From: Nitrospirota bacterium
GTDB lineage: Bacteria; Nitrospirota; Nitrospiria; SBBL01; JAADHI01
Direction: 5' to 3'
Assembly (NCBI GenBank): GCA_029261165.1
Contig: JAJDBV010000018.1
Coordinates: 1-32,884 of the forward strand
DNA length: 32,884 nt
Under the pieces are notes generated by a model, which saw only the letters and a program-made list of their open reading frames with translations, was not told the origin of the DNA and did no database searches. The first letter of the stretch is position 1, and each line of letters begins with the position of its first letter. This document shows, in pieces, positions 849 to 31,684 of the stretch. Made by a program: the position numbers and the translations under genes.

Positions 849-1655
849 TCAATCGACGATAAATTCCCCGCCGTCCACCCCGATGACGTTTCCGGTAATC
901 CAATGGGCCTTGGAGTGTGAAAGGAGAACGACTGCCCCTGCAACATCCTCCGTTGTTGTCAAGCGCCCCTGGGGATTTTTAGCCTTCGCCATCTCAATCA
1001 TCTCCTCATTGCCGGGAATTTTTCTCAGCGCGGGCGTATCTGTCACCCCGGCACGAATCGCATTGACTGAAATCCCCATCGGCCCGAGCTCGAGCGCCAA
1101 CTGGCGTGTATGTGATTCAAGTGCGGATTTGGCAGCCGATACCGCGCCATAGGTTTTCCAGACGCGCGCACCGCCGGCAGAAGTCATGGAAAAAATCCTT
1201 CCCCCCTTTGCCAGCAAGTCGCGATGCAACATGTCCTGGGTCCAATAGATGAGACTGTTCGCCATCACGTCGAGTGTCATTTCCATCTGGGGTTTGGCAA
1301 TAATCGTTTTTCCCGACGGACCAATGAAGGGCTTCAAGGTTCCAAAAGCCAACGAGTGAATCAAGACATGAACCGCGCCTCCATTTTCATCCCCCGCAAG
1401 TTTTTTCTTCATCTCGTCGAGGACTCCGTTTCGTTTTTCCGAATCGGCCGCATTAATATTAAAAAAAAGGGCCTCTCGACCCATTCCCTGAATCGTTGAA
1501 GTAATTCGATCCACATTGGGCAAGGTTCCTCTGCGGTCCAAGTGGACACCGAAGATATTCATTCCGGCCCGAGCCAATTCCAAAGCACAGGCCTCGCCAA
1601 AACCGCTTGAAGCCCCGAGAATTAGCGCCCAACCCTTCAGAAATTCATTGTTCAA
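849..1655 (-). CDS. fabL: Enoyl-ACP reductase, FabL-like SDR
   Basis: Predicted NAD(P)H-dependent reductase for the last step of each fatty-acid elongation round. It is a 268-aa short-chain dehydrogenase with the cofactor loop GASSGFG at residues 14-20. Tyr169 and Lys176 are separated by six residues, the Y-x6-K spacing of enoyl-ACP reductases, not the Y-x3-K of FabG. The C-terminal half (NAIRAGVTDTPALRKIP, then NPQGR and VDGGEF) matches Bacillus FabL from memory better than FabI, which is why the FabL-like label is used. The start is TTG at 1655: AGGAGG lies five bases upstream, directly after the fabH stop, and no ATG fits. It sits between fabH and fabD, 16 bases after fabH, which ties it to the same operon. 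A FabG-like ketoreductase role is the main alternative, less likely because of the Tyr-Lys spacing. Confidence 0.82.
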   Translation of the reverse strand: MNNEFLKGWALILGASSGFGEACALELARAGMNIFGVHLDRRGTLPNVDRITSTIQGMGREALFFNINAADSEKRNGVLDEMKKKLAGDENGGAVHVLIHSLAFGTLKPFIGPSGKTIIAKPQMEMTLDVMANSLIYWTQDMLHRDLLAKGGRIFSMTSAGGARVWKTYGAVSAAKSALESHTRQLALELGPMGISVNAIRAGVTDTPALRKIPGNEEMIEMAKAKNPQGRLTTTEDVAGAVVLLSHSKAHWITGNVIGVDGGEFIVD

Positions 1656-1671
1656 GTCAACCTCCTCGTTA

Positions 1672-2649
1672 TTAGTAGCGGACCAATGCTGAAGCCCACG
1701 TCAACCCACCCCCAAAAGCCAGAAAAAGGATAATATTGCCCTTTTTAATCCTCCCATCCAAAACCGCTTCATCCAATGCCACGGGGATGGATGCCGCCGA
1801 TGTATTTCCATATCGGTCAAGATTGACAACCATCTTTTCCTTCGGAATATCGAGACGACTTGCGACGGCATTCAATATCCGTATGTTTGCCTGGTGGGGA
1901 ACAATAAAATCCACATCCGAAGTAGAAAGGCCATTCGATTGAAGCGCCTCCCTTGCAACCTCTTCCAGGTTTCTAACGGCAACCCTGAATGTTTCGCTTC
2001 CCTTCATCTGGATTGTATTGAGATGTTCCGCCAGGACCTTTTCAGACACAGGCATCGCCGATCCGCCACCCGGAACGCAGATGAGATCCCATAGTTTTCC
2101 ATCCGTGTGAAGATGAACGGAAAGAATGCCGTTCTCCGAATCGGAAGGCGCCAATACAGCCGCACCCGCACCATCTCCAAAAAGAATACAGGTACTCCGA
2201 TCCGTCCAGTCCGTCAACCGGGACATTGTTTCTGCCCCAATCACGAGAACATATTGAGATCCGCCGCTCCGAACAAATTGTTCTCCGACCGACAGGGCAT
2301 AGACAAATCCGGAGCAGGCCGCCGAAAGATCGAAGGCGGCCGCACGGGTCGCCTTTAGTTTATCCTGTACGATACACGCGGTTGAGGGGAAAAACATGTC
2401 CGGCATTGACGTCGCAACAATAATGAAATCAATCTGGTCCGGGCCGATCCCGGCAGCCTCTATTGCCTTCCGGGCAGCCTTCACAGCAAGATCTGAGGTC
2501 GATTCATCTGAGGCGGCAATCCGTCTCTCCCGGATACCGGTTCGCTCAACAATCCACTGATCGTTTGTTTGAACCTTTTTCTCAAGATCATGATTGCTCA
2601 TGATCATTTCAGGAATATAGGAACCGGTCCCAATAATTTGAGCCTTCAT
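1672..2649 (-). CDS. fabH: β-Ketoacyl-ACP synthase III
   Basis: Starts fatty-acid synthesis by condensing acetyl-CoA (or another short acyl-CoA) with malonyl-ACP. The 325-aa length is standard for the family. The whole catalytic triad is visible: Cys112 in SAACSGF, His252 in VPHQANIRI and Asn282 in YGNTSAAS. The N-terminal segment GTGSYIPE and the WIVERTGIRERR stretch are also typical. It follows plsX by 58 bases and precedes the enoyl reductase by 16, so it is part of the lipid operon. No convincing ribosome site precedes the ATG. Straight versus branched primer preference cannot be read from sequence by eye; the nearby leucine-type dehydrogenase would be compatible with branched primers, but that link is conjecture. 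Confidence 0.96.
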   Translation of the reverse strand: MKAQIIGTGSYIPEMIMSNHDLEKKVQTNDQWIVERTGIRERRIAASDESTSDLAVKAARKAIEAAGIGPDQIDFIIVATSMPDMFFPSTACIVQDKLKATRAAAFDLSAACSGFVYALSVGEQFVRSGGSQYVLVIGAETMSRLTDWTDRSTCILFGDGAGAAVLAPSDSENGILSVHLHTDGKLWDLICVPGGGSAMPVSEKVLAEHLNTIQMKGSETFRVAVRNLEEVAREALQSNGLSTSDVDFIVPHQANIRILNAVASRLDIPKEKMVVNLDRYGNTSAASIPVALDEAVLDGRIKKGNIILFLAFGGGLTWASALVRY

Positions 2650-2707
2650 CGATAAAACCGTATCGTCTTTTCAGAAGCGCTTTTCGGGAGGTCACACGAC
2701 AAGATCA

Positions 2708-3730
2708 TCAACGCTTTTCAGCCAAGGGACTGGAAAGTCGCATCTGTGTCCCGATCTGCTCTTTGATATGGCGATTCATTCCTTTCTTGTGAAAATCTCT
2801 GGCAACGCGAATCGCATTTTTGATCGCGCGTGCCGAAGAGTTCCCATGACAAATAATACTGATACCGTCTACGCCCAGGAGAGGGGCTCCTCCATATTCG
2901 GCGTAGTCAATCTTCTTTTTAAATCTTGCAAACGATGGCTTCAAAAAAAAGTAGCCCAGCTTCCCCATGAAGGAATCCAAAATTTCCCGCTTAAGAAACT
3001 TGATAATGGCGTCGGAAAGACCTTCAGAGATCTTGAGCGCGACATTTCCGATGAACCCATCACAGACAACAACATCGGTCTCTCCGGAATAGACATCCCG
3101 CCCCTCCACATTGCCGATAAAGCCAAGAGAGCTCGCCTTCAACATCTTGAAGACCTCTTTCGTCAATTCATTCCCTTTTGTATCCTCTTCTCCAATGCTC
3201 AAGAGACCGATTTTAGGGTCACGAATCCCCAAAATCTTTTCGGCATACATATCCCCCATAATCGCGAACTGAAAAAGATGCTGCGGTTTGCAATCGACGT
3301 TCGCCCCGACATCGATCAAAACCGCCTGCCCTTTCAAGGTCGGGAGAAGCGTGGCAATTGCCGGTCGTTCAACGCCGGAGAGCGGCCCCAGGATAAAGAG
3401 TGAACTCGCCATCGTGGCACCGGTATTTCCGGCGCTGATGACGGCCACGGCCTCCGATTTTTTTACCAGTTCGGTTGCAACCCAGATGGAAGAACTTCTT
3501 TTCTTTCGGATCACAGAGGAAGGAGAATCCTCCATTTCGACCTTCTGTGAGGCATGAACGATCGATAGAGGCAGCCCTGTCGTCGCATGATGCGCAAGCA
3601 CTGCCTCAATTTTTGTTTTGTCTCCGACGAGAATGACTTCGACGTCCAGGTCGCGAGCCGCCAGGACAGCCCCTTCGACAATCGTCTCAGGAGCACGGTC
3701 CCCTCCCATCGCATCCAATGCAATCTTCAT
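2708..3730 (-). CDS. plsX: Phosphate acyltransferase PlsX
   Basis: Makes acyl-phosphate from acyl-ACP, the donor used by PlsY to begin phospholipid synthesis at the inner membrane. The 340-aa protein opens with the family signature MKIALDAMGGDRAP and carries SAGNTGATMA and DVGANVDCKP, with GVDGISIICHGNS near the C-terminus. Length and motifs are normal, with no break. The start is supported by an AGAGGT site four bases before ATG. It lies 33 bases after rpmF and 58 before fabH, the classic rpmF-plsX-fabH arrangement that links membrane lipid supply to ribosome synthesis. Confidence 0.96.
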   Translation of the reverse strand: MKIALDAMGGDRAPETIVEGAVLAARDLDVEVILVGDKTKIEAVLAHHATTGLPLSIVHASQKVEMEDSPSSVIRKKRSSSIWVATELVKKSEAVAVISAGNTGATMASSLFILGPLSGVERPAIATLLPTLKGQAVLIDVGANVDCKPQHLFQFAIMGDMYAEKILGIRDPKIGLLSIGEEDTKGNELTKEVFKMLKASSLGFIGNVEGRDVYSGETDVVVCDGFIGNVALKISEGLSDAIIKFLKREILDSFMGKLGYFFLKPSFARFKKKIDYAEYGGAPLLGVDGISIICHGNSSARAIKNAIRVARDFHKKGMNRHIKEQIGTQMRLSSPLAEKR

Positions 3731-3763
3731 AATACCTCTATAGAAGGGAGGACTTGTGGATTC

Positions 3764-3946
3764 TTATATTTCTTTTACCGCGACGACTTCCCGCCCCTTG
3801 TACGTTCCACAATTCATGCAAACGCGATGCGGAATACGCGGCTCCTGACATTGCGGACAACGTACAACACCCGGGGTCTTCAGGCTCAGATGTGACCGTC
3901 TCTTGTCACGCCTCGATTTTGACTGCTTGTGTTTTGGATGCGCCAT
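3764..3946 (-). CDS. rpmF: 50S ribosomal protein L32
   Basis: Small zinc-ribbon protein of the large ribosomal subunit. The 60-aa sequence begins [17 protein letters not shown], close to the usual [17 protein letters not shown], and carries CPQC and CMNC, the four cysteines of the zinc-binding form. Two ATG codons are adjacent (3949 and 3946). AAGGAG lies only two bases before the first and five before the second, so the second is preferred, and it also gives the family's normal N-terminus. It lies between yceD and plsX in the conserved order yceD-rpmF-plsX. Keeping all four Cys marks a zinc-dependent (C+) paralogue; no C-minus copy is in this window. Confidence 0.95.
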
Positions 3947-3977
3947 CATTTCTCCTTATTTATGTGACGATTAGGTA

Positions 3978-4508
3978 TTACAACAGGTTCTTTAATTTCG
4001 ACCATTGCGCATTAGGAAGTTCTGCGGGACAGGAACAAGTCTTCTGGTTCAAGTTTTCTCCACAATTCGGGCACAGGCCACGGCAATCCGGCTTACAGAG
4101 CGGGTGCATCGGAACGGCCAGTAAAAGCTGACTCCTAAGCTCATCATTGATATCGATTTGGTCCCCTTGATAGTAATTGATCTCCAGTTCTTCACGCGAC
4201 AAGATCAGTTCTTCCTCTAAAGGAATCTGCGGTGTGGGGACATATTCAATGTTGAAATCAGACCGAATCGGATCACGGTAATGCACCAGGCAACGGCCGC
4301 ATTCGGAAAGAATCCCCCCCTCAATCGCGCCGCGAATATAGACGTTGTTCTCATTATGTTTGACCGCTTTCAACTGGACATGAACCATCCCTTCTACTGA
4401 GATTTCCTGCTCATCCAGCCCCCAGTGCATTGGGTCTTCCTCGTAGGACAACGAAAGCCCCTCGCTCGGAATCTCTTGAACTTTTATCTCCATTTTCATT
4501 CCGATCAT
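3978..4508 (-). CDS. yceD: YceD family (DUF177) protein, 23S rRNA accumulation factor
   Basis: YceD/DUF177 proteins are almost always encoded just ahead of rpmF and have been linked to 23S rRNA accumulation; the mechanism is not established. The protein is about 170 aa, with CGRCLVHY in the middle and a Cys-rich C-terminus (CKPDC, CPNCG, then CSC) that could bind a metal. The start is uncertain. ATG codons stand at 4508, 4499 and 4493. The promoter upstream predicts transcription beginning near 4513, which would leave only about five leader bases for the first ATG. The ATG at 4493 has GGA six bases ahead and gives MEIKVQEIPSEGL, the typical family beginning, so the shorter form may be the real one. 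It is the first gene of the lipid operon. Confidence 0.88.
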   Translation of the reverse strand: MIGMKMEIKVQEIPSEGLSLSYEEDPMHWGLDEQEISVEGMVHVQLKAVKHNENNVYIRGAIEGGILSECGRCLVHYRDPIRSDFNIEYVPTPQIPLEEELILSREELEINYYQGDQIDINDELRSQLLLAVPMHPLCKPDCRGLCPNCGENLNQKTCSCPAELPNAQWSKLKNLL

Positions 4509-4519
4509 CAAAACAAGTG

Positions 4520-14591: not shown

Positions 14592-16652
14592 ATGAAGAGT
14601 CTGTGGTCAGACCGTGAAGCAAGGAAAATATCGGGGGTAGACCTCGTGGTCTATACCTCAAGATTGATTGGGGCCAATCCGAACCTGGTTCTTTGGGGAG
14701 GAGGTAATTCTTCGATAAAAGTTGATGGAACAGATCACAAGGGCCTGCCCGCGCGAATCCTCTGGATTAAAGGCAGCGGGTCGGATATGAGAACCATCGC
14801 CCCGGAAAACTTCACGCCACTTCGTCTTGACGACCTCCTCCCCCTGATGAAACGAAAGGCAATGAGCGATGAAGAAATGGTGAATTACCAGTTAAAATCT
14901 GTTTTGGAACCCAAAGCCCCAAAGCCGTCGATTGAAACCCTTTTGCATGCTTTCCTACCCGCACCCCACATTTATCACACACATGCAGACGCAATATGCG
15001 CCCTGACGGACACCACAAACAGCCGAAAGATTGTTGAGGATGTCTACGGCCAGGAAGTCGCAGTTGTTGATTACATCCGTCCCGGGTTTCTCCTCTCAAA
15101 AGGGGTTTCTCATGCTTATCAGAAGCATCCCGGTTTGCGCGCGATTATCCTCGACAAACATGGCCTCATCACGTGGGGAGAGACCGCCAAAGAAGCCTAT
15201 GATCAAACCATCCGGATGGTCTCCGCGGCAGAGCGGTACGCCGCACGAAAAAAGCGGGGAAAACAGGCCATGGGTCCCCTTCAGGTCAAGCCGCTCGCGC
15301 GTAAAGAACGCCATAAGGCTGCCGCCGCCCTCGTCCCGGTATTACGCGGTGAAGTCAGTCAGAACAAGCGCATGATCTTCCAATTTGATGATTCTCAAAA
15401 AGTCCTGACCTTTACCGGATCAACAGAAGCCAAACGTTTGACGCAGATTGGCCCCTTTACGCCGGATCATCTCCTCCACACAAAACCATGGCCGCTCTTC
15501 GTCAAGACCAAGGATCCTCGGAATACGGCAGGTCTCATTTCTGAAATTAAGAAGGCATGTGAAGCCTATAGAGAACGCTCTGTCAAATACTTCAATCGTT
15601 ACAAAACACCTGGCGTCACGATGCTCGATCCGAACCCGCGCATCATCCTGATTCCAGGCATCGGGATGTTTACCAGCGGGAAGGATCGACGTGCGGCCGG
15701 CATCACGCGTGACCTCTATCTTCATACGATGGGCGTGATCGAAGCCGCAGAGGCGATTGACGGATACCGGTCGATCCCGACACGGGAGATCTGCAACTTT
15801 GAGTACTGGCCGATGGAAAACTATAAACTGACCCTTCTCCCGCCTGAAAAGGAGTTTTCCAGAAAAGTGGTTCTGATCACCGGCGGCGCCGGGGCGATCG
15901 GCCGCGCAATAGCTGAATCATTTGTGGAAGCGGGCGCCTCCGTGATTTTAACGGATATTCAGTTAGAAAAAGCCGACGCGGCGGTCGCAAAAATAAACGC
16001 CAAGACTGGAGGAGAACAGGCGGTCGCCCTTGAGATGGATGTCACCAATGAGAAGAGCGTCCGCTGCGGTTTTGAAACTGCCGCCCTTTACTTCGGCGGG
16101 CTTGACATCTTTGTTTCGAACGCGGGGATTGCTCGATGCGCAGCTGTGGATCAATTATCCCGTAAAGACTGGGAGGCATCCATTGCCGTCAATGCAACGG
16201 GCCATTTTCTAACATCGAGAGCGGCATTGCAAATCATGAAGGCTCAGGGGCTTGGCGGCGCCATCGTCGTCGTCGCGACCAAGAACGTCCTGGCACCCGG
16301 AAAAGATTTTGGTGCCTATTCTGCGTCCAAGGCCGCCCAGGCACAACTTGCCCGGATTATGGCCATTGAAAATGCCCAGGCAGGAATTCGCGTGAATATG
16401 GTGAACCCGGACGGGGTCTTCGAAGAATCCGGGCTTTGGTCAAAAGAAATCAGGGAAGAACGTGCTCAGGCCCACCAAGTCTCACTTGAAGACCTGGAGG
16501 CCTTCTACGCCAGGCGGAATCTCCTACAAACCCGAATAAGCGCCATGGATGTCGCCCAATCCGTCCTCTTCCTCGCCTCCGACCGGGCCGCTAAAACAAC
16601 AGGCGCCATTCTGCCGGTCGATGGCGGAGTCAAAGAGGCCTTCCCGCGCTAG
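14592..16652 (+). CDS. Bifunctional class II aldolase / short-chain dehydrogenase (RhaD-RhaE type)
   Basis: Two-domain enzyme, 686 aa. Residues 1-about 225 form a class II aldolase: GGGNSS near 36, SIET with a probable catalytic Glu115, the zinc pair HTH (129-131) and DKHGLITWG near 189. Residues about 425-686 form a short-chain dehydrogenase: GGAGAIG (431-437), SNAG (509-512) and YSASK (Tyr576, Lys580), with VDGG at the end. The middle 200 residues are the linker domain typical of this family. Close relatives are rhamnulose-1-phosphate aldolase/lactaldehyde dehydrogenases, which split a deoxyketose phosphate and oxidise the lactaldehyde. No rhamnose isomerase or kinase is nearby, so the sugar is uncertain. 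The usual SDR serine position appears to be Thr563. GGAGAGGG precedes the ATG. It is convergent with the diguanylate cyclase, with 21 bases between stops and no terminator. Confidence 0.88.
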   Translation: MKSLWSDREARKISGVDLVVYTSRLIGANPNLVLWGGGNSSIKVDGTDHKGLPARILWIKGSGSDMRTIAPENFTPLRLDDLLPLMKRKAMSDEEMVNYQLKSVLEPKAPKPSIETLLHAFLPAPHIYHTHADAICALTDTTNSRKIVEDVYGQEVAVVDYIRPGFLLSKGVSHAYQKHPGLRAIILDKHGLITWGETAKEAYDQTIRMVSAAERYAARKKRGKQAMGPLQVKPLARKERHKAAAALVPVLRGEVSQNKRMIFQFDDSQKVLTFTGSTEAKRLTQIGPFTPDHLLHTKPWPLFVKTKDPRNTAGLISEIKKACEAYRERSVKYFNRYKTPGVTMLDPNPRIILIPGIGMFTSGKDRRAAGITRDLYLHTMGVIEAAEAIDGYRSIPTREICNFEYWPMENYKLTLLPPEKEFSRKVVLITGGAGAIGRAIAESFVEAGASVILTDIQLEKADAAVAKINAKTGGEQAVALEMDVTNEKSVRCGFETAALYFGGLDIFVSNAGIARCAAVDQLSRKDWEASIAVNATGHFLTSRAALQIMKAQGLGGAIVVVATKNVLAPGKDFGAYSASKAAQAQLARIMAIENAQAGIRVNMVNPDGVFEESGLWSKEIREERAQAHQVSLEDLEAFYARRNLLQTRISAMDVAQSVLFLASDRAAKTTGAILPVDGGVKEAFPR

Positions 16653-16673: not shown

Positions 16674-18017
16674 TCAGGAACAAGTCCGATTTCGCCCCTC
16701 CGATTTGGCCCTGTACAAAGCCTTGTCGGCACGTGAAATGATCCCTTCTTGAGACAGCAGTGATTTTTCATTCGCCTTGAATGTCCCTATCCCAATGCTA
16801 CAGGTCAAAACCGCTTTCGCGGGCAGAATTCGGGAAGATGCGACCGTCTCCCGTATACGCTCAGCGACAGCCATGGCATCACTTTCTTCTGTATTTGTCA
16901 TCACGATCAGAAATTCCTCTCCGCCAAAGCGGGTTAAGGTATCATAGGGCCGGATGACAGACTCGAAAAGCTTTGCCAGATCTTGCAGGGCTTGATCACC
17001 GACAAGATGTCCGAATCGATCATTCACCGTCTTGAAATGGTCAATGTCGATCATGAGAATGGATAAGGGGCTATGGAGACGTGATGCCTTTCCTAACTCC
17101 GCAACAAGAGTCTCATTCAGATATCGCCGATTGTAGACACCGGTGAGGGGATCGCGAATCGAAAGACTTTTGATCTTTTCAAAAACCTGCTGTTTCTGTA
17201 TGGCGATGACCGCCTGGGTACCCAATACGGTCATACTGTCCAGGATGGACGGACTGAAGCCCCGAACCTTGAAGTCATCCACATAGAGGATGCCGACCGG
17301 ACCTCTTTCAGAAAACAACGGCACGGCAATGAGCGAGCAGATCCCCTCTTTTACCATGACCGGATTGTTAAAAGTAGGGTGCTTCGAAATATCAGGGATA
17401 AGCACGAGCTCATGTCGTGCCAGAATATATTCCGCCAATCCTCCTTGACGAACGGGATAGACCGCATTCCTGTAAAAATTTGAGGAGAAACCTTTTGCAC
17501 TGACAAGAAAAAGCTCTTCTTGCTCACTATTGTAGATCGAAAGAGAACCGGCAGGCATCTCCGTCATCCGCATCGCACCCGTGACAATCGCCTCGAAGAT
17601 CTGATCAGAAGTCTCTGACTTGGAAAGCATCAGACTGATCTCTGAGAGAATCTTTTGTTCACCAAGGCGTTTTCGGATGCTGGCTTCCTGAACTTCCAGG
17701 TCTCGAATAACATCCCAAAGGAGATAAGTGACCTGGCCGCTGGCGACATCAAATGTCCTTTGCGGAAGATTGCTGAGATTCGCTCCGATCTGGGGGTCCC
17801 CGGTCAGCTCAAAAACCAGATCAGCCTTCACCTTCTCCAAAACTTTGATTGGATCCTCAATATAACAGGGGACACCGACCTCACGCGCAATACGAATTCC
17901 TTCCGCGTTGGGGTCTTGATCAATCACCCCCGTGACCTCGACCCAGTTTGATTGCATGAGTCGGCGCAAAACAGTGGCCCCCCCTTGTCCCGCGCCGACG
18001 ATGACCACTTTAACCAT
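16674..18017 (-). CDS. Diguanylate cyclase: Rossmann domain + GAF + GGEEF
   Basis: Predicted to make c-di-GMP from GTP in answer to a cytosolic signal. Numbering from the ATG at 18017 (447 aa): residues 1-about 100 are a Rossmann nucleotide-binding domain (VVIVGAGQGG at 4-13, and an acidic end of strand two in GVIDQD, which favours NAD over NADP). Residues about 120-278 are a GAF domain (SLIAVPL, GPVGILYVDDF). From about 285 follows the GGDEF domain, with an intact active site GGEEF (365-369) and an intact inhibitory site RPYD (356-359), so product feedback is expected. Upstream GTG/TTG starts exist at 18035 and 18038, but the Rossmann fold begins at this ATG. There are no membrane segments. 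It lies 58 bases after the histidine kinase on the same strand. Confidence 0.88.
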   Translation of the reverse strand: MVKVVIVGAGQGGATVLRRLMQSNWVEVTGVIDQDPNAEGIRIAREVGVPCYIEDPIKVLEKVKADLVFELTGDPQIGANLSNLPQRTFDVASGQVTYLLWDVIRDLEVQEASIRKRLGEQKILSEISLMLSKSETSDQIFEAIVTGAMRMTEMPAGSLSIYNSEQEELFLVSAKGFSSNFYRNAVYPVRQGGLAEYILARHELVLIPDISKHPTFNNPVMVKEGICSLIAVPLFSERGPVGILYVDDFKVRGFSPSILDSMTVLGTQAVIAIQKQQVFEKIKSLSIRDPLTGVYNRRYLNETLVAELGKASRLHSPLSILMIDIDHFKTVNDRFGHLVGDQALQDLAKLFESVIRPYDTLTRFGGEEFLIVMTNTEESDAMAVAERIRETVASSRILPAKAVLTCSIGIGTFKANEKSLLSQEGIISRADKALYRAKSEGRNRTCS

Positions 18018-18075
18018 AGGGAGATGGTAACACACCAACTCCAGATGTCAAGAATTCCAACCCCCGGTCATTCCT

Positions 18076-20484
18076 TCATATGTCGCGGTCTTTTTTGACG
18101 GGAACGCCTACCTGCAAAGTAAAGAAGAAGGTGCTCCCCTCTCCCGGCACGCTCTCACACCAGATCTTCCCCCCAAGGTGTGTAATGATTTCCCGACAAA
18201 TGGGAAGTCCGAGTCCCGTCCCCTTCGGCTTTCCCTCCTGTTTTTCGATCACCTGATAAAATTTTTCGAAGATCCTCTCCCGATCCTCCGGTTCAATTCC
18301 GCCCCCTGTGTCCCTGACGAAGACCTCCACAAAACTTTCATTCTGTGTCACCCCGACGACAACCTCCCCTGACGGGGTGAACTTGATGGCATTACTCAAA
18401 AGATTGACCACCACCCGACGGAGATGTTCCTGGTCCCCATGGATCAGCGGGAGATTCGAACAAGGTTCTATGCGGAGGCCAAGGCCCTGTTTGTCTGCAA
18501 GCGGTTTGGCCAGATTCACCGACTCAAATAAAAGTTGTTTCAAGTTAATAGGAATGATGTCCCATACCATCTTGTCGGAAGATAACTTTGAAAGATCGAG
18601 CAGATCGTCCAAGAGCGACAGGAGGTGTCCTCCCGCCTGGCCGATGATAGAAAGAAAGCGCTGTCGAGACGATGGGTCGAGGTCCTCGGATTCAAGAAGT
18701 TCTGCATACCCAAGGATAGATGTCATCGGGGTCCTGATTTCGTGCGAGACATTCGAGATCAGGTCGGTCTTGAGCTGATCAAGCTCTTTGCTCTTTTCAT
18801 AAAGTTGGGAGTTTTGGGCCGCCATCCCGATCGGTCGTGAGACGGAACTTAGGAGGTCGATCGTATCGGGCGAAAAGGGAGCATCCTTACGCGCCAAAGA
18901 GAGGATCCCTAAGGGGCCTTTTCCCGCGAGGATCGGAATTGAAATCACCTCCTTATAGCCTGCGTTCAGAAGTGGAAGGACGGTTCCGTCCGGCGGCGTG
19001 GTCTTTGGATTAACGATAACCGGGCGACGCAGGAGCACCGTTTTTTTGCGTTGTTGACCCCAAGCTTTTATGACATCTCCAGATGTACCGACCCATTCCT
19101 CATGACTGCCCCTCCCCTCAGACAGCCTGTGCTCCATGCCGTAAACCCCGATATAGCCGGCGTCGGCGGAGATTCGATTGACGACGACAGCAAGGGTATC
19201 TTTCAAGGTCTCCTGAAGGTCAAGTGATCGGTTGGCCACCCTGGAAACCTCATTGATCAGGGCCAGGTCGTCCGTTCGGTCTGAGATCTTCTGCTCCATG
19301 AGAACGGTCGATTCGTAGATTTGATCGGCCATCTTGTTGAAAGCGAAGGCCAGCTCGCCGATCTCATCCCCCGACGAAGTGGGGAGACGGTGGTGGAGTT
19401 CGCCCCTTCCGATCCGCTTAACCCCATCCCTCAGCAGGACAATGGGTCGTGCCACGCGATCCGCCAGGAAGATTGCGGTACAGGCCATCAGGGCGATCAG
19501 GCCAACGCCTGCCAGCGCGCTGTAAGTCTGGAGCGTCCGGATTGGCAGAAAGCTTTCTCTCGGATCCTGGCGGATGAAGCTATGCCACAGTTTGCTGCTT
19601 CCACCACTCGAGATAAAACGGTTAATTTTTGTCGTCGGCGCGAACCCGACGATGGAGTTACTTCCCCCATGCCCGTCGTCCTCGGCCTGAAGCCAGCCGG
19701 AGGTCGGAGAGGAGACCGTCTCCACGAGGGAAACGTTGGAAATGTGGCTTCCGGTCGCAAGGATTGGGCAGATGAGGACCGTCCCGGAGGCATCAACCAG
19801 CATGGCATGGCCGGTCTCTCCAAAACGGATCTGGTGAATCGGTTCTTCGAGAAAGTTTTTCAGGTCAACGACCGCTTTCAGAACCCCGAGCGTTTCGACC
19901 GTCACCTCATCGATGATCGGAAGAACAATATCGAAGACAAACCGGTCCTCGAAACGGTATATATCACTCAGGAAGACCAATCCCCGCTCCGGATCAATCG
20001 CCCTTTTCCACCATGTGTCATTCCCATGAAAGTAACTCGGCTTGAAATTAATCGAAGCCGCCAGGGCACCCTTTCGATCGACAACGAAGAGGACGCCCAA
20101 TTTTCCCTGAGCAATCTCATTCACCATCAGTCTTCTGAGAAGGTCGGAATTTTTTTTTCTCAGGAGCGAGTCTTCGATCACTTCGCCCCGGCGTTCGCGG
20201 TTCCATTCAAGAATCCCGCTTTCAATCGCCCCCAACTCCGGAGGATCGCCGACTTTACGAAGATCTTCCGCGAGTAAAGGAAGAAGATCATTTAATCGTC
20301 TAATTTCCTGTGTGAGAGAAAGGTCGACCTTATGGGCAACCTCTTTGGCAAGGCTCTGAAAGTTCTCACCAATTTCCGAACGAAGCGCAGTCGTCCCGAC
20401 ATAAGAAGTGATCAACAGGCCGGAAGAGAGGACCAGGATACCCCCAATGACGGTTGTTAATATCATCTTTGGACGCAGTTTCAT
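18076..20484 (-). CDS. Membrane sensor histidine kinase (Cache-HAMP-GAF-HisKA-HATPase)
   Basis: Inner-membrane sensor kinase, 802 aa. In order: membrane helix 8-28; a large periplasmic double-Cache-like sensor 35-318 (KLGVLFVVDRKGALAAS and TGHAMLVDASGTVL are its two PAS-like cores); helix 322-341; HAMP about 342-395 (RPIVLLRDGVKRIGRGEL); GAF about 415-560; HisKA with phospho-acceptor His581 in SNVSHEIRTPM; HATPase with Asn698, DTGGGI (725-730) and GTGLGL (755-760). All kinase boxes are intact. Cache domains usually bind small organic ligands. No response regulator lies beside it; the next gene is the diguanylate cyclase. Its ATG overlaps the preceding gene's stop (ATGA), so translation is coupled. 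Confidence 0.93.
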   Translation of the reverse strand: MKLRPKMILTTVIGGILVLSSGLLITSYVGTTALRSEIGENFQSLAKEVAHKVDLSLTQEIRRLNDLLPLLAEDLRKVGDPPELGAIESGILEWNRERRGEVIEDSLLRKKNSDLLRRLMVNEIAQGKLGVLFVVDRKGALAASINFKPSYFHGNDTWWKRAIDPERGLVFLSDIYRFEDRFVFDIVLPIIDEVTVETLGVLKAVVDLKNFLEEPIHQIRFGETGHAMLVDASGTVLICPILATGSHISNVSLVETVSSPTSGWLQAEDDGHGGSNSIVGFAPTTKINRFISSGGSSKLWHSFIRQDPRESFLPIRTLQTYSALAGVGLIALMACTAIFLADRVARPIVLLRDGVKRIGRGELHHRLPTSSGDEIGELAFAFNKMADQIYESTVLMEQKISDRTDDLALINEVSRVANRSLDLQETLKDTLAVVVNRISADAGYIGVYGMEHRLSEGRGSHEEWVGTSGDVIKAWGQQRKKTVLLRRPVIVNPKTTPPDGTVLPLLNAGYKEVISIPILAGKGPLGILSLARKDAPFSPDTIDLLSSVSRPIGMAAQNSQLYEKSKELDQLKTDLISNVSHEIRTPMTSILGYAELLESEDLDPSSRQRFLSIIGQAGGHLLSLLDDLLDLSKLSSDKMVWDIIPINLKQLLFESVNLAKPLADKQGLGLRIEPCSNLPLIHGDQEHLRRVVVNLLSNAIKFTPSGEVVVGVTQNESFVEVFVRDTGGGIEPEDRERIFEKFYQVIEKQEGKPKGTGLGLPICREIITHLGGKIWCESVPGEGSTFFFTLQVGVPVKKDRDI

Positions 20485-25067: not shown

Positions 25068-26474
25068 ATGGCAGACCAAAAGATCCTAGACGCGCAAAAA
25101 ATTCTGCTTCAGCATGAAGGTCCCATTGAAACGTTGGAGGATTACCTCGCGATCGGAGGTTTCCAGGCGCTCAAAAAAGCCGTGACAATGACCCCGATGC
25201 AAATCATTAATGAAATTAAAAAATCATTTCTGAGAGGCCGTGGCGGCGCGGGTTTTCCCGCGGGGATCAAATGGGAAGGGGTGCATCGGAACAACGACAC
25301 CATATTGGGACGCGCCCCTCAGAAATATCTCGTGTGTAACTGTTCAGAAGGGGAACCAGGCACCTATAAAGACCGCTACCTCATCCAAAAAAACCCCTAT
25401 ACCCTCATCGAAGGGATGATCATCGCTTCCTACGCTATTGGCACTGTCGATGCGATGATCTGCATCAAGGAAATTTTCAAGAAGGAAATTGCCATTCTGG
25501 AGCGGGCCATTCAGGAATGTGTTACAGCCGGATACGTGGGTGAAAATGCGATGGGTTCTGGCCATAATCTCCCACTTAAACTGACGTTTGGCCCCGACTC
25601 CTACCTCCTGGGGGAAGACCGCGCGCAGCTGGAAGTCATAGAGGGAAAACCACCCTGGCCGCGTGCGAAGGGTATCATTCCTGTCTATGTCGGGCTTTAT
25701 GGACAACCAACGGTCGTGAACAATGTTGAAACACTTGCCACGGTCCCCCACATCCTCCGTAAAGGAGCAGATTGGTTTAAATCAATCGGCACGGCCGATA
25801 CCCCGGGGACCATGATTTTCACCCTCACGGGCGATATCAACCGCCCCGGCATGTATGAGCTTCCGATGGGGACCCCCTTGCGCACCTTGATTGATGTTTA
25901 CGGTGGCGGACCGAAGATGGAACGGCATGTGAAGGTCGTCTTTTCAGGACCCACAAATTCTGTCATCCCGGCCAGTAAGCTCGACACCCCTCTCGATTTC
26001 GGATCCATGCGGAAAATACCCTCCGGCCTCGGTTCGGGCGGCTTCATCGTTTTAGACAATACGGCTTGTGTCCTCAAGGCAGGCCTGGATTTTGCGAAAT
26101 TTCTTGCGATTGAGTCCTGCGGTCAATGCTCCTCATGCAAAACAGGAACAGGCCGGATTGCCCGCGGCCTTGAGCTACTGGAAGAAGGACGCGCAACTGA
26201 AGAGACCGTCCTGGCCATCCTGGAGGACTGTGAACATATCAAAGGGTCAGGACATTGCTATCTCTGTACTGAACCGGGTCTTGAAATCGGTAGCATCTTG
26301 CACCATTTCCCGAATGATGTCATTGAACACCTCGAATACGGCTGTCTAAAAGACCGGCATCTTGTGATGCCGAAGATCAAGAGCTTTGATGAAGCAACAA
26401 ATACCTTTACCTTTGATGAAGGCTACTTCGACCGATGTCTGTCTGATGGGAAGCTGATCAATTACCCTGGTTAA
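25068..26474 (+). CDS. Stand-alone NuoF-like flavoprotein (NADH dehydrogenase 51-kDa subunit family)
   Basis: FMN and 4Fe-4S protein of the NuoF/HoxF family, 468 aa, expected to take electrons from a nicotinamide nucleotide. Visible are the FMN loop GRGGAGFPAG (57-66), EGEPGTYKDR (94-103) and the N3-cluster cysteines Cys351, Cys354 and Cys357 in ESCGQCSSC, plus Cys397 in GHCYLC, at the usual spacing. The segment that in NuoF reads GEETALLESLEG is GEDRAQLEVIEG here (182-193), so residues near the nucleotide are changed. No NuoE thioredoxin-like domain is fused, and no NuoE, NuoG or other complex I gene is beside it. It has its own promoter; GGAG lies 11 bases before the ATG. It is followed, behind another promoter, by the cytochrome bd-like oxidase. 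Confidence 0.9.
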   Translation: MADQKILDAQKILLQHEGPIETLEDYLAIGGFQALKKAVTMTPMQIINEIKKSFLRGRGGAGFPAGIKWEGVHRNNDTILGRAPQKYLVCNCSEGEPGTYKDRYLIQKNPYTLIEGMIIASYAIGTVDAMICIKEIFKKEIAILERAIQECVTAGYVGENAMGSGHNLPLKLTFGPDSYLLGEDRAQLEVIEGKPPWPRAKGIIPVYVGLYGQPTVVNNVETLATVPHILRKGADWFKSIGTADTPGTMIFTLTGDINRPGMYELPMGTPLRTLIDVYGGGPKMERHVKVVFSGPTNSVIPASKLDTPLDFGSMRKIPSGLGSGGFIVLDNTACVLKAGLDFAKFLAIESCGQCSSCKTGTGRIARGLELLEEGRATEETVLAILEDCEHIKGSGHCYLCTEPGLEIGSILHHFPNDVIEHLEYGCLKDRHLVMPKIKSFDEATNTFTFDEGYFDRCLSDGKLINYPG

Positions 26475-26544
26475 GCCGACAGAAACTTCACAAGGCCCGG
26501 CTTCCTGGTATCCTCATGAATGTCTGCTCAGCCCTCCAAATCGC

Positions 26545-26574
26545 TTGACACCTTTCCCCCTCAGTCGGTATGAT
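26545..26574 (+). promoter_or_regulatory. σ70-type promoter of the cytochrome bd-like gene
   Basis: TTGACA (26545-26550), 18-base spacer, TATGAT (26569-26574), expected start near 26581. The ATG is at 26605, with AAAGG six bases upstream. Both boxes are close to consensus, so independent, fairly strong expression is expected. Confidence 0.75.
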
Positions 26575-26604
26575 TATTTTTACTCGTAAAGACAAAGGCA
26601 TATC

Positions 26605-28518
26605 ATGGTTTGGCATCAACAGTTTTACAGACTTTCTGCGCCGCTTTTCGCGGCGTTTCTCATTCTCTCCCTGGTCATCTCATCCGACCTGAGTCATGCT
26701 TCCGAGGCAGACCCATCCTTTCAGGAAAAGACCCCCTCCAATCCGCTGACTGATATTTATCTAGGAACAGAGGGTGTTATTTCGGGTCCGCCTGCGCCGG
26801 TATTGTCCTACCCGGACAGCTACGGAGGCGGGAGGCGGATCGACAGCCGCTCCGTCCTCTGGATATTCATCCAGCAACATTTTTTCCTGGGAAGTTTTAT
26901 CCTCGGTGTTCCCATGATCGCCTGGATGTTGGAATGCTTCGGTTTCTTCCGAAAAAGGAGAGCAGACCCTCCTGAAAAACATGATCAACTCGGTCGGGAT
27001 ATCATGCAGATCTGCCTCCCCTTTTATCCTTTGACGCTTATTACCGGTCTCGCTCTTCTCGGAGCATTTCTCTTTTTGTATTCGGAGTTCTCTAAATACA
27101 TGTCTTCGGTCTTCAATCCGGTGATCGCGCTTTATGCCGTCGTTTTTTTTATCGAGACTCCTTTGCTCTACGCCTATGCCTTGACCTGGAACCGGTGGAA
27201 GCAGGGCCGGCTGAAGTGGCTTCATTTCGGCCTTGGCGGCCTGACCTGCCTCAATGGATTGGCGATTATCTACCTTGCAAATGCCTTGATGGCTTTCATG
27301 ATGTCGCCGTCCGGAGTTAACGAAAAGGGAGCCTACCTGGGAAACATCTGGAACGCGGTCAATACCCCTCTTTGGAATCCGCTCAATGTCCACCGGATTC
27401 TGGCCAGTATCATGTTCAGCGGGGCCGTCCTCGCGGCCTACGCGGCGTATCAGATGCTCACCACACGTGACCCGGAGAAAAAAGCCCATTATGACTGGAT
27501 GGGACATGTCATGATCATGATCTCCATCGCCAACCTCTTTATTCTCCCCTTTGCCGGATACTGGTTCGCAAAAGCGATCTTCATCTATCGTCAACGGATG
27601 GGCATGACCTTAATGGGCGGTAAGCTCAGTTGGCCTTTTGTGATGCAGGCGACGCTGATCGGACTGATCTTCATGACAGTGACCTACTACCTCTGGCGAG
27701 GGACGACCCGGATGCAGGGGGCCGAGCGGTACAACCACCTTGCAAAGTACATGATGATTGTTTTTACCATCGCCTTCATGATCTGGATCACACCGCACAC
27801 CATTCCCGCCAGCCAAGGAGAGATTCAGGCCATGGGAGGCGCACAACATCCGATTGTCGGATATTATGGAACCATGGCGGCCAAAAATACAGCCATCAAC
27901 ACAATGATCTTAAGCTTCGGTATCTGCTTCATCATCTTTAAACGCTGCAACAAGCAGATGACGATTACATGGTCAAAGTGGGGGAATACGGCGATGATCT
28001 CTCTCTTTGCGATTGCGGAGGGTTTCATCATCTACTACGGGGTCTACGGATTTTTTGTCCCGGCCAACATCAGGGTGAACCTGGCCCGTCCGCAATTTCT
28101 TGTCACCATGGGCGCACTCGTCATCGGGGCAGTCCTAAATGGGGTGATGCTCAAAAAATCGGAGTCCATCGGGCCGATTCAATGGGGGAAACTCCCCCTG
28201 GGCGGGGCGATTTCCATCTTTTCGCTGGCCGTCTTTATTTCGACAACGATGGTGTTGATGGGATACATCCGCTCGTCGGTCAGGCTTGATTGGCATGTCA
28301 CTGAAGTCTTAAAAGACACGACCCCCTGGGCGGGGACCCCGACCCTCACTTATGCCATTGGCATGGTGCTATTAAATGTTGTACTCTTTTGGATCATTAC
28401 CATCTTCATCTTTCGATCTGGAAAAACGCGTAGGATGTCTGCCTTCTCCCTTCAACCTGATGCCGTGGGTCCAAATGCCGAGGGGAAGGAGATGCCCTCG
28501 GAGTTCATCCCAAAATAA
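26605..28518 (+). CDS. Cytochrome bd-like oxidase subunit I, long single-subunit form
   Basis: CydA-related heme membrane protein, 637 aa, versus about 450-520 for ordinary CydA. Residues 12-33 form a signal-like segment (ending SHASEA), followed by about 50 polar residues, then some 14 membrane helices. CydA landmarks can be aligned: His92 in IQQHFFLG, FFIETP with Glu184 (the CydA FFLEST glutamate), NALMAFMMSPSG near 226 (the CydA NGWMQNPIG loop) and His263 in NVHRILAS. Further His stand at 207, 301, 378, 398, 415 and 564. No CydB, CydX or assembly gene is adjacent, and extra C-terminal helices are present. Nitrospira-type cytochrome bd-like oxidases share this plan, from memory. Oxygen reduction is likely but not certain; some such paralogues may use other acceptors. 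Confidence 0.85.
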   Translation: MVWHQQFYRLSAPLFAAFLILSLVISSDLSHASEADPSFQEKTPSNPLTDIYLGTEGVISGPPAPVLSYPDSYGGGRRIDSRSVLWIFIQQHFFLGSFILGVPMIAWMLECFGFFRKRRADPPEKHDQLGRDIMQICLPFYPLTLITGLALLGAFLFLYSEFSKYMSSVFNPVIALYAVVFFIETPLLYAYALTWNRWKQGRLKWLHFGLGGLTCLNGLAIIYLANALMAFMMSPSGVNEKGAYLGNIWNAVNTPLWNPLNVHRILASIMFSGAVLAAYAAYQMLTTRDPEKKAHYDWMGHVMIMISIANLFILPFAGYWFAKAIFIYRQRMGMTLMGGKLSWPFVMQATLIGLIFMTVTYYLWRGTTRMQGAERYNHLAKYMMIVFTIAFMIWITPHTIPASQGEIQAMGGAQHPIVGYYGTMAAKNTAINTMILSFGICFIIFKRCNKQMTITWSKWGNTAMISLFAIAEGFIIYYGVYGFFVPANIRVNLARPQFLVTMGALVIGAVLNGVMLKKSESIGPIQWGKLPLGGAISIFSLAVFISTTMVLMGYIRSSVRLDWHVTEVLKDTTPWAGTPTLTYAIGMVLLNVVLFWIITIFIFRSGKTRRMSAFSLQPDAVGPNAEGKEMPSEFIPK

Positions 28519-28523
28519 CGACA

Positions 28524-28552
28524 AATTGGTGTTAGTTAAAAAACCACCAATT
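28524..28552. terminator. Possible shared hairpin between convergent genes
   Basis: AATTGGTG and CACCAATT, eight-base perfect arms with a 13-base loop, spanning the end of the peptidase gene six bases after the oxidase stop. There is no T-run behind either arm, so termination in either direction is only a possibility. Confidence 0.35.
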
Positions 28553-31500
28553 CCATGATTTAGGTTCCGGCACATCCTCCGGATACAAGGTCGAAGAGAG
28601 CGGATCAGGGCGGGAAGCCAGATTTTCCACAACTTCCTTGGCCACCTTGACCGCCTTGACCAGACCCGCTTTGTCGATCTTATCAACCGTGTCTGAAGGA
28701 CGATGAAAATCAGGGGTCTTCCCACTCGATATTTGGACGGCCGGAATTCCGACATCAGTGAAACTCTTTTGATCGCTTGAACCGATTTCATTCGAATTCG
28801 TCTCAATCGGCACCCCGGCCTTAAAACCGGCGTCCCTGAACATTCGAGTCCACTCCCGTGCCGAACCGGTACCGTAAATAATCATATCTTTCTCTCCCAA
28901 TCGGCCGACCATGTCAATGTTCACCATCCCGAAAATTTTATCTGCCTGAAATGGCTTTGGATAGGCGGCATAATGCTTTGATCCAAGCCGGTCCATTTCC
29001 CCGGCGGCAAAGGCAACAAAGACCACGGGCCGTTCAAGCGGCCCTCCTTTTGCCAGGACCCTGGCGAGTTCCAACAAAACAGCAATACCGCTCGCGTTGT
29101 CGTCTGCACCCGGATGGATCTCGCCCTCGTTTCCTTCATGGCCCTCCATCCAACCAAGTCCGAGATGGTCATAGTGGGCCCCGACAATAATCCCTTGATC
29201 CGACCACTCCGCTCTGGATCCGGGAATAAAACCGATCACGTTTTTTAGAGAAACCGGACTTCCCACACCGTCACCTTTTTCTCTCCATATCTGGATATAG
29301 CTCGCTTCGATATCTCCGGCCGATTTCAGCCCCGCTTTCCGGAAAGCCTTGGAAATAAAATCTGTAACCAGATCCGACTCCGGCATTGAAAAACCCCGCC
29401 CTTTCAAAGTACGGTCCGTCATAAAATGGATCTCTTTCATCATCTGGGTACTTGAAACAACAGAAGGCAATTTGGCCAAAGCATGCCGGGGAGGGAGTAA
29501 GCCTCGTGCCCTCCGCCTCGTCTTTCCGCCATCCGTCTGTTTAACCCTGACCGAGATCGGGGAACGTTTGACCGGCCATTTTCCTTTCACAACATTGATC
29601 GGATCTTTCCCCTTAAAGGCAAGATAGCCATATCGTCCGTAGTGTTGAAGTTTTCTTCCCAAGCTGGCCAACGATGCCGGATTGTCCACGGCCATCCAGG
29701 CCAAGGTAAGTTTTTTATCCCCTGGATGGCGCGCGGCGAGAACAAGGCTATGGCCTCTGCGGGGAACCTGAATCCGGTCAATTCGGGCCATGGCACTCGT
29801 CATCACAAGGTTGTATCTCCTTAACTGCGCCAGCGCCTTGTGCTGGAATCTGTTTTCCCAGCCGAGGAGCCAAACAGCACGGTCGTCCGGCAGCGCATCA
29901 ACCTCATCGTCCCATTTTATTTCAACCTCCCCTTGATGAGACATTTTCCACGTGTGTGCCAAGCTTTGGTATGCGCGTCGTACCCTTTCGCGCGCCGTTG
30001 CAGGCAGAAGAATGACGACAGACTTCGCGCCAAACATCTGAGAAATAGACGGTGGTGCCTCTTCAGGGTCTAATCTCCGAAAGAGATCGTATTCCGGGTC
30101 AAGATCAAGGTGTAGAGGTCTTGCCGGGAGTTGGAGTGACAGATCAAGGGTCTTATTCGTCATTAAAACGGTCGTCTGGTATGCTTCTTTCCGGCCCTCA
30201 AGTGTCACAGCAATTGGGAGTTGGAGTCGATAAGGTGCCCCGCTCTGCCTCTGCCTGATCGTTGCAGTCAAGACATAGCCTTCTCCTTCCTCATTTTTCT
30301 CTGCTTTCGCACGCCTGACCTGCAAGCGAGGCGCACCGGGCCGGGTCACCCACTGATTAAATTCAAAATCTAGATCCAGCCCGGAGGCACGACTGAACGC
30401 ATGTTTAAGGTCGGTGAATGAGGCCCGTCTAAACTTATTTTCATGAAAGAATGTTTGCAATGCCTCGATGAAAATCTCGTCGCCAACTTTAAGTCTCAGC
30501 ATGTGAAAAAAATGCATCGTCTTTCCGTAGCCAACAGCTTGTGAAGCGGCATCGACCCGCCCTTGGAACTCCATGAGCGGGAAATCCTTTCCCGCTGTCA
30601 CATAATCTGCATATTTTTGCAGCGAAGCATGCCGGGACGCCTTCCCTCCCCCATGTTGTTCCTGTATGAGATAATCTGCCAGATATGCCGTCAATCCCTC
30701 GCTCCAGTTACCGGTCTCCCGGTCAACATAGACACCGTTTCCCCACCAATTGTGTAAAATCTCATGGGGATAGGAGGAGTGTAAAATAAATGGAAATCGG
30801 ATGATCTTTGAGCCCAGAAGCGTAAAAGATGGCATCCCGTAACCTGTTTCCCAAAAATTTTCAACCAGGGCAAACTTTGAGTAGGGATAGGGACCGAGCA
30901 ATTTCTCATACATTTCAAGGTATTGTTCCGTTACCTCTAAATATTTCTGTGCCAATTCAGGGTCCGGTGTTCTGAGAAAGACCATGGCGACCACCTTTCC
31001 CGCCTGCCGAAGGTATTCATGCCATTCCCCCGCAACAAGATAAATCTCCTCCTGCGGCTCAGATGATACCCAGCGAACGCGGACAAGGTTATCTTCTCTG
31101 ATGTATTCTTCTCTTCCCCCCTGACTGACCGCATTCCAGCCTTTCGGCAAAGTAAGGTCAAGGGAGAATGTGGTCATGTCAGCATAAAACCAGGGATACC
31201 AAAAGGTTTCACCCGAGAGAAAGACGCCTTCTGTCGCAATAATTCCAGGGGTTCCGGATGACCGGTCGGCATTCCCTCCTCCTGACATCAAGGGGTGGTT
31301 GATCTCGCCTTCATATGCCATGACAAACTGACGCAGTCCGATCGGAAGTTTCACCAGGTAGTGTTCCAAACGTACCCCTGCCTCCCCTCCCCCTCCACTC
31401 AGTCCAAACCCCAAAGGTTTCGGATCTTCCTTTTCATAGATGATCTTTACCCCGGCGGTCTGAGATACAGGCCGCAAACCCCTGTGAAGAAGAAAATGGA

Positions 31501-31684
31501 AATTCCCTTCCGGATCAGAGGAAATGGACCTTGGGAGGGTAATTGTATCTTCAACCTGAAGGTGATGTGTTTCAGGATTCAGGTTGACCTTTATTTCATG
31601 ATGAATGGTTTGCTGAGCTTTGAGAATGCCTGGGAACAAGGTCAGGATCGCAATGAGGGCAGACCGGAAAATAAAATCCTTCAT
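28532..31684 (-). CDS. Secreted M1-M28 metallopeptidase fusion
   Basis: Exported protein, 1050 aa, signal peptide 1-23 (ALIAILTLFPGILKAQ). An N-terminal β-rich region is followed by an M1 aminopeptidase core: GYGMPSF (281-287, in place of GAMEN), zinc motif HEILHNWW (His307, Glu308, His311) and Glu329 in NWSEG. A long region of about 400 residues then leads to an M28 domain. Its metal ligands are present: GAHYDH with His837, Asp861 in GADDN, Glu896, Asp924 in NIDMVG and His994 in DFHRPSD. The general-base Glu that normally precedes Glu896 (GEE-type motif) is Gly895, so the M28 half may not be catalytic. AGGAG lies seven bases before the ATG. It has its own promoter and is convergent with the oxidase. 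Confidence 0.9.
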   Translation of the reverse strand: MKDFIFRSALIAILTLFPGILKAQQTIHHEIKVNLNPETHHLQVEDTITLPRSISSDPEGNFHFLLHRGLRPVSQTAGVKIIYEKEDPKPLGFGLSGGGGEAGVRLEHYLVKLPIGLRQFVMAYEGEINHPLMSGGGNADRSSGTPGIIATEGVFLSGETFWYPWFYADMTTFSLDLTLPKGWNAVSQGGREEYIREDNLVRVRWVSSEPQEEIYLVAGEWHEYLRQAGKVVAMVFLRTPDPELAQKYLEVTEQYLEMYEKLLGPYPYSKFALVENFWETGYGMPSFTLLGSKIIRFPFILHSSYPHEILHNWWGNGVYVDRETGNWSEGLTAYLADYLIQEQHGGGKASRHASLQKYADYVTAGKDFPLMEFQGRVDAASQAVGYGKTMHFFHMLRLKVGDEIFIEALQTFFHENKFRRASFTDLKHAFSRASGLDLDFEFNQWVTRPGAPRLQVRRAKAEKNEEGEGYVLTATIRQRQSGAPYRLQLPIAVTLEGRKEAYQTTVLMTNKTLDLSLQLPARPLHLDLDPEYDLFRRLDPEEAPPSISQMFGAKSVVILLPATARERVRRAYQSLAHTWKMSHQGEVEIKWDDEVDALPDDRAVWLLGWENRFQHKALAQLRRYNLVMTSAMARIDRIQVPRRGHSLVLAARHPGDKKLTLAWMAVDNPASLASLGRKLQHYGRYGYLAFKGKDPINVVKGKWPVKRSPISVRVKQTDGGKTRRRARGLLPPRHALAKLPSVVSSTQMMKEIHFMTDRTLKGRGFSMPESDLVTDFISKAFRKAGLKSAGDIEASYIQIWREKGDGVGSPVSLKNVIGFIPGSRAEWSDQGIIVGAHYDHLGLGWMEGHEGNEGEIHPGADDNASGIAVLLELARVLAKGGPLERPVVFVAFAAGEMDRLGSKHYAAYPKPFQADKIFGMVNIDMVGRLGEKDMIIYGTGSAREWTRMFRDAGFKAGVPIETNSNEIGSSDQKSFTDVGIPAVQISSGKTPDFHRPSDTVDKIDKAGLVKAVKVAKEVVENLASRPDPLSSTLYPEDVPEPKSWNWWFFN

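Follow-up and report, generated by a model that had tools for sequence, protein, structure and literature searches.

The window analysed here (the whole stretch of 32,884 nucleotides, contig JAJDBV010000018.1 of a Nitrospirota bacterium) encodes a predicted c-di-GMP synthase headed by a Rossmann domain. ORF calling and Pfam place this protein of 447 residues on the minus strand at 16674..18017; the ORF was confirmed as real, and the plus strand of the same interval is riddled with stop codons. The start codon, an ATG at 18017 from which the protein begins MVKVVIVGAGQGG, agrees with the starts of its homologues, although translation could also begin at a TTG 21 bases upstream. No clear Shine-Dalgarno sequence was found ahead of the ATG. 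A sequence search located a promoter-like site, TTGACA-16-TACCAT (18024..18051, minus strand), which ends 6 bases ahead of the ATG; sites of this kind occur in the region at chance frequency. With a promoter-like site so near the start codon (18017-18051, minus strand), a leaderless transcript is possible.

The protein is composed of four parts, all read from the minus strand. The Rossmann domain (residues 1 to about 93; 17739..18017) continues into a long helix (residues 94-133; 17619..17738), which connects it to a GAF domain (residues 135-274; 17196..17615; Pfam GAF_2, E 2.3e-14) in the full-length AlphaFold2 model (pLDDT 88.3, pTM 0.58). The GGDEF domain follows (residues 287-444; 16686..17159; E 6.3e-46) and contains the hallmarks of a diguanylate cyclase, namely the GG(D/E)EF active site, here GGEEF at residues 365-369, and the metal-binding aspartate. 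The RxxD inhibitory site (I-site), R356 to D359, lies five residues ahead of GGEEF. In an alignment of 29 Rossmann-GAF-GGDEF proteins (of 32 found, the three cut by contig ends being omitted), R356, D359, G365, G366, E368, F369, D324 and D326 are invariant. The first-pass annotation had read this ORF as a Rossmann domain, a GAF domain and an intact GGEEF/RxxD cyclase, and Pfam, the motifs and the alignment all agree with that anatomy. The protein is a soluble diguanylate cyclase with an intact GGDEF domain and I-site, and cyclase activity is predicted.

The N-terminal domain carries the GxGxxG signature as GAGQGG (G8, G10 and G13), and the acid closing its second strand is D33. No Pfam or NCBIfam model exceeded its cut-off for this part when searched within the whole protein, and the libraries contain no dedicated family model for it. 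The nearest model, GFO_IDH_MocA (PF01408, residues 2-68), scored 22.2 bits in the whole protein against a cut-off of 24, and 25.4 bits when the domain was scanned alone; TrkA_N stayed below its cut-off of 23.8 in both settings (18.3 and 20.4 bits). A profile built from 52 diverse examples of this domain (hereafter the module) matched acylating acetaldehyde dehydrogenases (1e-7 to 4.5e-6) as well as Rex (7.3e-4) and DapB (3e-3). The same 52 sequences served as input for an AlphaFold2 model of the domain alone (pLDDT 95.2, pTM 0.86), for which the best Foldseek matches were again acylating acetaldehyde dehydrogenases (3.8e-5). Structural comparison, in which matches within 1 Z of each other count as tied, gave 4lrs_B (Z 12.9, rmsd 1.7, 95 aligned), KefC 3eyw_B (Z 12.5, rmsd 1.8, 89 aligned) and TrkA (Z 10.9, rmsd 2.9, 110 aligned). 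The domain search of the N-terminal part proposed earlier thus returns a Rossmann domain closest to the cofactor domain of acetaldehyde dehydrogenases.

Conservation was assessed over 238 distinct domains, which were deduplicated and, for the later set, restricted to E 1e-12. Residue 33 is acidic in all 238 (Asp in 208, Glu in 30), and of the 233 domains with letters at the glycine motif, 227 have GxGxxG in full. These figures are slightly biased towards the conserved residues because the profiles used to find the domains include their columns. Both features hold in every output class; among domains attached to GGDEF, Asp33 occurs in 48 of 48 and GxGxxG is complete in 43 of 47 and incomplete in four. 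Identity to the window domain ranges from 15 to 50%. Recurrence in 238 distinct sequences is far above chance, and since these relatives keep the acid, a chance Rossmann look-alike was ruled out. The earlier assignment of an NAD-type Rossmann domain is therefore sustained by motif, profile, predicted fold and the universal acid, and residues 1 to about 93 constitute a non-catalytic domain of this type with predicted nucleotide binding.

The module is not confined to one protein. The genome from which the window derives has five copies on three kinds of output: three Rossmann-GAF-GGDEF proteins, one Rossmann-HisKA_3-type kinase, whose gene is followed by that of a NarL-type regulator, and one Rossmann-sigma54 activator. 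At locus L008 (4674-6655), the Rossmann-kinase gene has cytochrome c-like genes upstream and is succeeded by the gene for a NarL-type response regulator. By its closest named records, the window falls within the order of Candidatus Troglogloeales/Manganitrophus. Across the 18 genomes examined of this order, the module is present in all; it is attached to a GGDEF protein in 18 (Rossmann-GAF-GGDEF in 16, and in the other two solely a version that has EAL as well), to a sigma54 activator in 18 and to a kinase in 14. Among 295 genomes of the Nitrospirota phylum, 200 gave matches at 1e-3, and in the phylum of a Rokubacteria record 47 of 95 genomes did so as against 23 at 1e-12 or better; in both searches, weak matches (E above about 1e-8) may be ordinary dehydrogenases. 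At 1e-12, the module was found in 99 of 349 genomes of the phylum of an Azovibrio record (Pseudomonadota) and in 46 of 149 of the phylum of a Syntrophomonadaceae record.

Several bacterial groups carry the module in front of histidine kinases, sigma54 activators, MCP-type proteins and cyclases. Twenty Pseudomonadota loci comprised 11 Rossmann-GGDEF proteins, seven Rossmann-GAF-kinases with cut ends and two proteins without a recognised output; 19 further usable regions, picked by size, comprised 12 Rossmann-GGDEF, six MCP-like proteins and one module alone. The module is thus on a GGDEF protein in 23 of 39 usable Pseudomonadota loci, counts that describe samples rather than frequencies, and it is joined there to GGDEF in proteins of about 300 residues in which GAF was not detected. 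Matches of 215-270 residues in this phylum were at one stage taken for PglD/NeuD acetyltransferases, a reading that was dropped: the eight regions retrieved as a check on it contain six MCP-like proteins, one GGDEF protein of 345 residues and one protein without a recognised output. The six (L306, L308, L309, L311, L312 and L313; 215-270 residues) consist of the module and a short MCP hairpin, and the nucleotide loop is partly degraded in some of them. In Bacillaceae, the module occurs on Rossmann-PAS-sigma54 proteins. The first-pass annotation had supposed this domain to be an uncommon cyclase partner, which the order and the Pseudomonadota loci contradict.

A tree of 99 domains, obtained by clustering the 238 at 70% and setting aside rows under 95 residues or with no recognised output, requires 10 changes of output against a minimum possible of four. 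This suggests that the module was fused to GGDEF independently more than once; the tree is built on 117 columns and 43 of its 96 branches are open, so that independent fusions are suggested only.

Gene context bearing on the ligand comes from the sigma54 version. Within the order, the gene immediately preceding it encodes malate dehydrogenase in all 18 genomes, and a NuoF-like gene follows it in 15, in one case with a 98-residue ORF in between; of the remaining three, two have another gene at this place and one ends at a contig end. Both families were assigned by Pfam on one representative each. This context is that of the sigma54 paralogue, and the neighbours of the window cyclase itself have no NAD theme. 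In relatives (L273, 9885-13500), the series mdh, Rossmann-sigma54, nuoF and HesB continues with DUF177-like, plsX, fabH and SDR genes; the latter four also occur at 849-4511 of the window, without the regulator, most of these names being assigned by reading. At two Rokubacteria loci, a gene that reads as isocitrate-lyase-like comes after the module gene.

The acid, the enzyme relatives and the mdh and NuoF-like genes around the sister regulator favour NAD(H) as the ligand. The main competitor is a sensor of another adenine-containing molecule, such as CoA or acyl-CoA, AMP or ATP, or NADP(H). The closest fold is that of acetaldehyde dehydrogenase, whose domain also binds CoA; CoA_binding matches 10 of the 52 module members; BkdR, a relative discussed below, has as neighbours ptb- and bcd-like genes, which belong to the metabolism of branched-chain acyl-CoA; and KefC and TrkA carry other nucleotides in the matched structures (AMP and an ATP analogue, respectively, according to the entry titles). 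However, the acid after strand 2 in all 238 domains speaks against NADP, GFO_IDH_MocA matches 41 of the 52 members as against only 10 for CoA_binding (one Rex model reaches up to 15), and mdh and the NuoF-like gene beside the sister regulator point to NADH. Another ligand is rated as less likely. We favour a soluble cyclase whose non-catalytic NAD-type Rossmann module would set c-di-GMP output through the helix and the GAF domain, with NAD(H) as the presumed ligand and effector, and we assign this reading a probability of roughly 0.55.

In this mechanism, the module would bind NAD+ or NADH, with D33 holding the adenosine ribose and GAGQGG the diphosphate. Occupancy or redox state of the ligand could then alter a dimer of Rossmann domains, and the change would travel along helix 94-133 to the GAF pair, which may set the distance between the two GGDEF active sites. 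The product c-di-GMP would limit its own synthesis at the I-site. Through one module on several outputs, the cell may read its NAD(H) state into all of them at once.

As an alternative, the GAF domain or a neighbouring membrane histidine kinase might supply most of the signal, with the Rossmann domain only tuning the response. The GAF domain, which is conserved, separates Rossmann from GGDEF, and the kinase gene (18076..20484, minus strand; by Pfam, HAMP, GAF, HisKA and HATPase, with dCache below cut-off) lies 58 bp upstream of the cyclase on the same strand, which makes its product a possible partner. Kinases with a related sensor come after Rossmann-kinase genes at five Nitrospira loci (L014, L015, L016, L193 and L199), with sensor-region identities of 28-34% over up to 405 residues (216 in L016, 286 in L199). 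Such pairs occur in at least eight genomes of the class among the matches listed, two of which are L193 and L199, and this hints that soluble Rossmann proteins may work beside a membrane sensor kinase. Nevertheless, the sensor region belongs to a large subfamily, present in 133 of 295 genomes of the phylum and often in two to five copies each, and none of the cyclase-type relatives retrieved was seen to have a related-sensor kinase next to it; the pairing is therefore no more than suggestive. Pfam detects no receiver domain in the window cyclase, and the Pseudomonadota fuse the module to GGDEF without a detected GAF domain. A dominant role for GAF or the kinase is therefore considered improbable. 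A third alternative, in which the Rossmann domain is a ligand-free scaffold for dimerisation or docking of the GAF-GGDEF part, could account for the few members with degenerate loops (6 of 233 without GxGxxG) and for the continuation into a long helix, but is a poor prospect given that the phosphate loop and the acid are near-invariant across domains sharing 15-50% of their residues with that of the window.

Several other features of these loci were recorded. Two of the Nitrospira loci (L014, 3314-7509; L015, 3042-7506) have a receiver-like ORF clustered with a Rossmann-kinase and with a large membrane kinase, the sensor region of which resembles that of the kinase adjoining the window cyclase. 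The porin gene and the gene for a 211-residue protein in the window stand beside none of the relatives examined. On the plus strand, 14592-16652 encodes a single chain of 686 residues that unites a class II aldolase domain with a short-chain dehydrogenase domain, and 25068-28518 comprises a NuoF-like gene standing alone and, after it, a gene for a CydA-like protein of 637 residues, in which the Cyt_bd_oxida_I match is N-terminal only. On the minus strand, 28532-31684 encodes a chain of 1050 residues that combines two peptidase domains, M1-type at 307-445 and M28 at 815-1017. PADLOC returned nothing for the window.

A need for another NADH sensor would fit the scarcity of Rex in these bacteria. 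The profile search found Rex in none of the 18 genomes of the order and above cut-off in 3 of 295 genomes of the phylum, and its N-terminal DNA-binding domain (PF06971) was found neither in the window protein nor in the window genome. As this absence is phylum-wide, it is not specific to module-bearing genomes. The control search was positive for Bacillus subtilis, although Bacillus carries BkdR, and for E. coli, which is not known to have Rex, so that single matches of this family need care. In its broadest form, our proposal is that one Rossmann module is a general bacterial NAD(H) sensor plugged into c-di-GMP synthesis and turnover, kinases, sigma54 activation and MCP-type proteins, and that it is both the NADH sensor of the Rex-poor Nitrospirota and the unrecognised input domain of BkdR; this remains tentative, at somewhat less than even odds.

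The component parts of the window protein are of known kinds, and the module itself has neither a family model nor a description that we could find. The first-pass annotation had allowed that the architecture might prove both widespread and already characterised; the former was borne out in the order and in Pseudomonadota, and literature searches at the level of titles and abstract openings returned no description, which is weak evidence of absence as most subscription papers and all preprints lay outside their scope. In the available part of a review census of the sensors of c-di-GMP enzymes (PMC8846402), the word Rossmann is absent, and PMC12016497 proved a false lead, as the available part of it has Rossmann as an author name. 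The module is best read as a widespread, undescribed input module, which probably binds NAD(H) and would here feed c-di-GMP synthesis; it is probably a sensor of the metabolic state of the cell that is frequent yet has been missed. If this is correct, a dedicated NAD-type module on cyclases, kinases, activators and MCP-type proteins would connect the NAD(H) pool directly with behaviour and transcription.

Among known systems, the closest in sequence and fold is the N-terminal cofactor domain of acylating acetaldehyde dehydrogenases of the DmpF/BphJ type. The catalytic half of these enzymes is missing from the window protein, which carries a signalling output in its place: the full-length equivalog scored 29.7 bits against a cut-off of 282.25 and matched only positions 2-73 of 285. 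Their aspartate aligns with D35 of the window protein rather than D33. The idea that the cyclase is joined to a working dehydrogenase was ruled out, as Pfam and NCBIfam detect no dehydrogenase catalytic domain. Rex, a Rossmann-based NADH sensor and only a weak profile match, is a repressor with a winged-helix DNA-binding part; the window protein lacks that part and carries a c-di-GMP synthase domain instead. KefC and TrkA also have regulatory Rossmann domains (RCK/TrkA_N), but these are attached to ion transport, unlike the window protein. Other c-di-GMP enzymes use PAS domains with flavin or haem, and globin domains, to read the redox state. AxDGC2 and RmcA couple reducing power to c-di-GMP through a flavin bound by PAS, and the word Rossmann is absent from the available part of the source (PMC12540587).

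BkdR of Bacillus, which activates the bkd operon in a sigma54-dependent manner, has the same N-terminal Rossmann module, about 30% identical to that of the window. A Bacillus locus (L020) was assigned to BkdR because of its place directly upstream of ptb- and bcd-like genes, ORFs that were named by reading. In the available part of PMC4428206, two PAS/PAC domains are described for BkdR of B. thuringiensis, and the word Rossmann is absent. The output of BkdR is PAS-PAS-Sigma54-HTH_8, in contrast to GAF-GGDEF in the window protein, which has neither Sigma54_activat nor HTH_8, so that only the input module is common to both. If the proposal holds, this long-studied regulator would gain its missing input domain, and BkdR makes the idea of an NAD(H) sensor testable in Bacillus subtilis.
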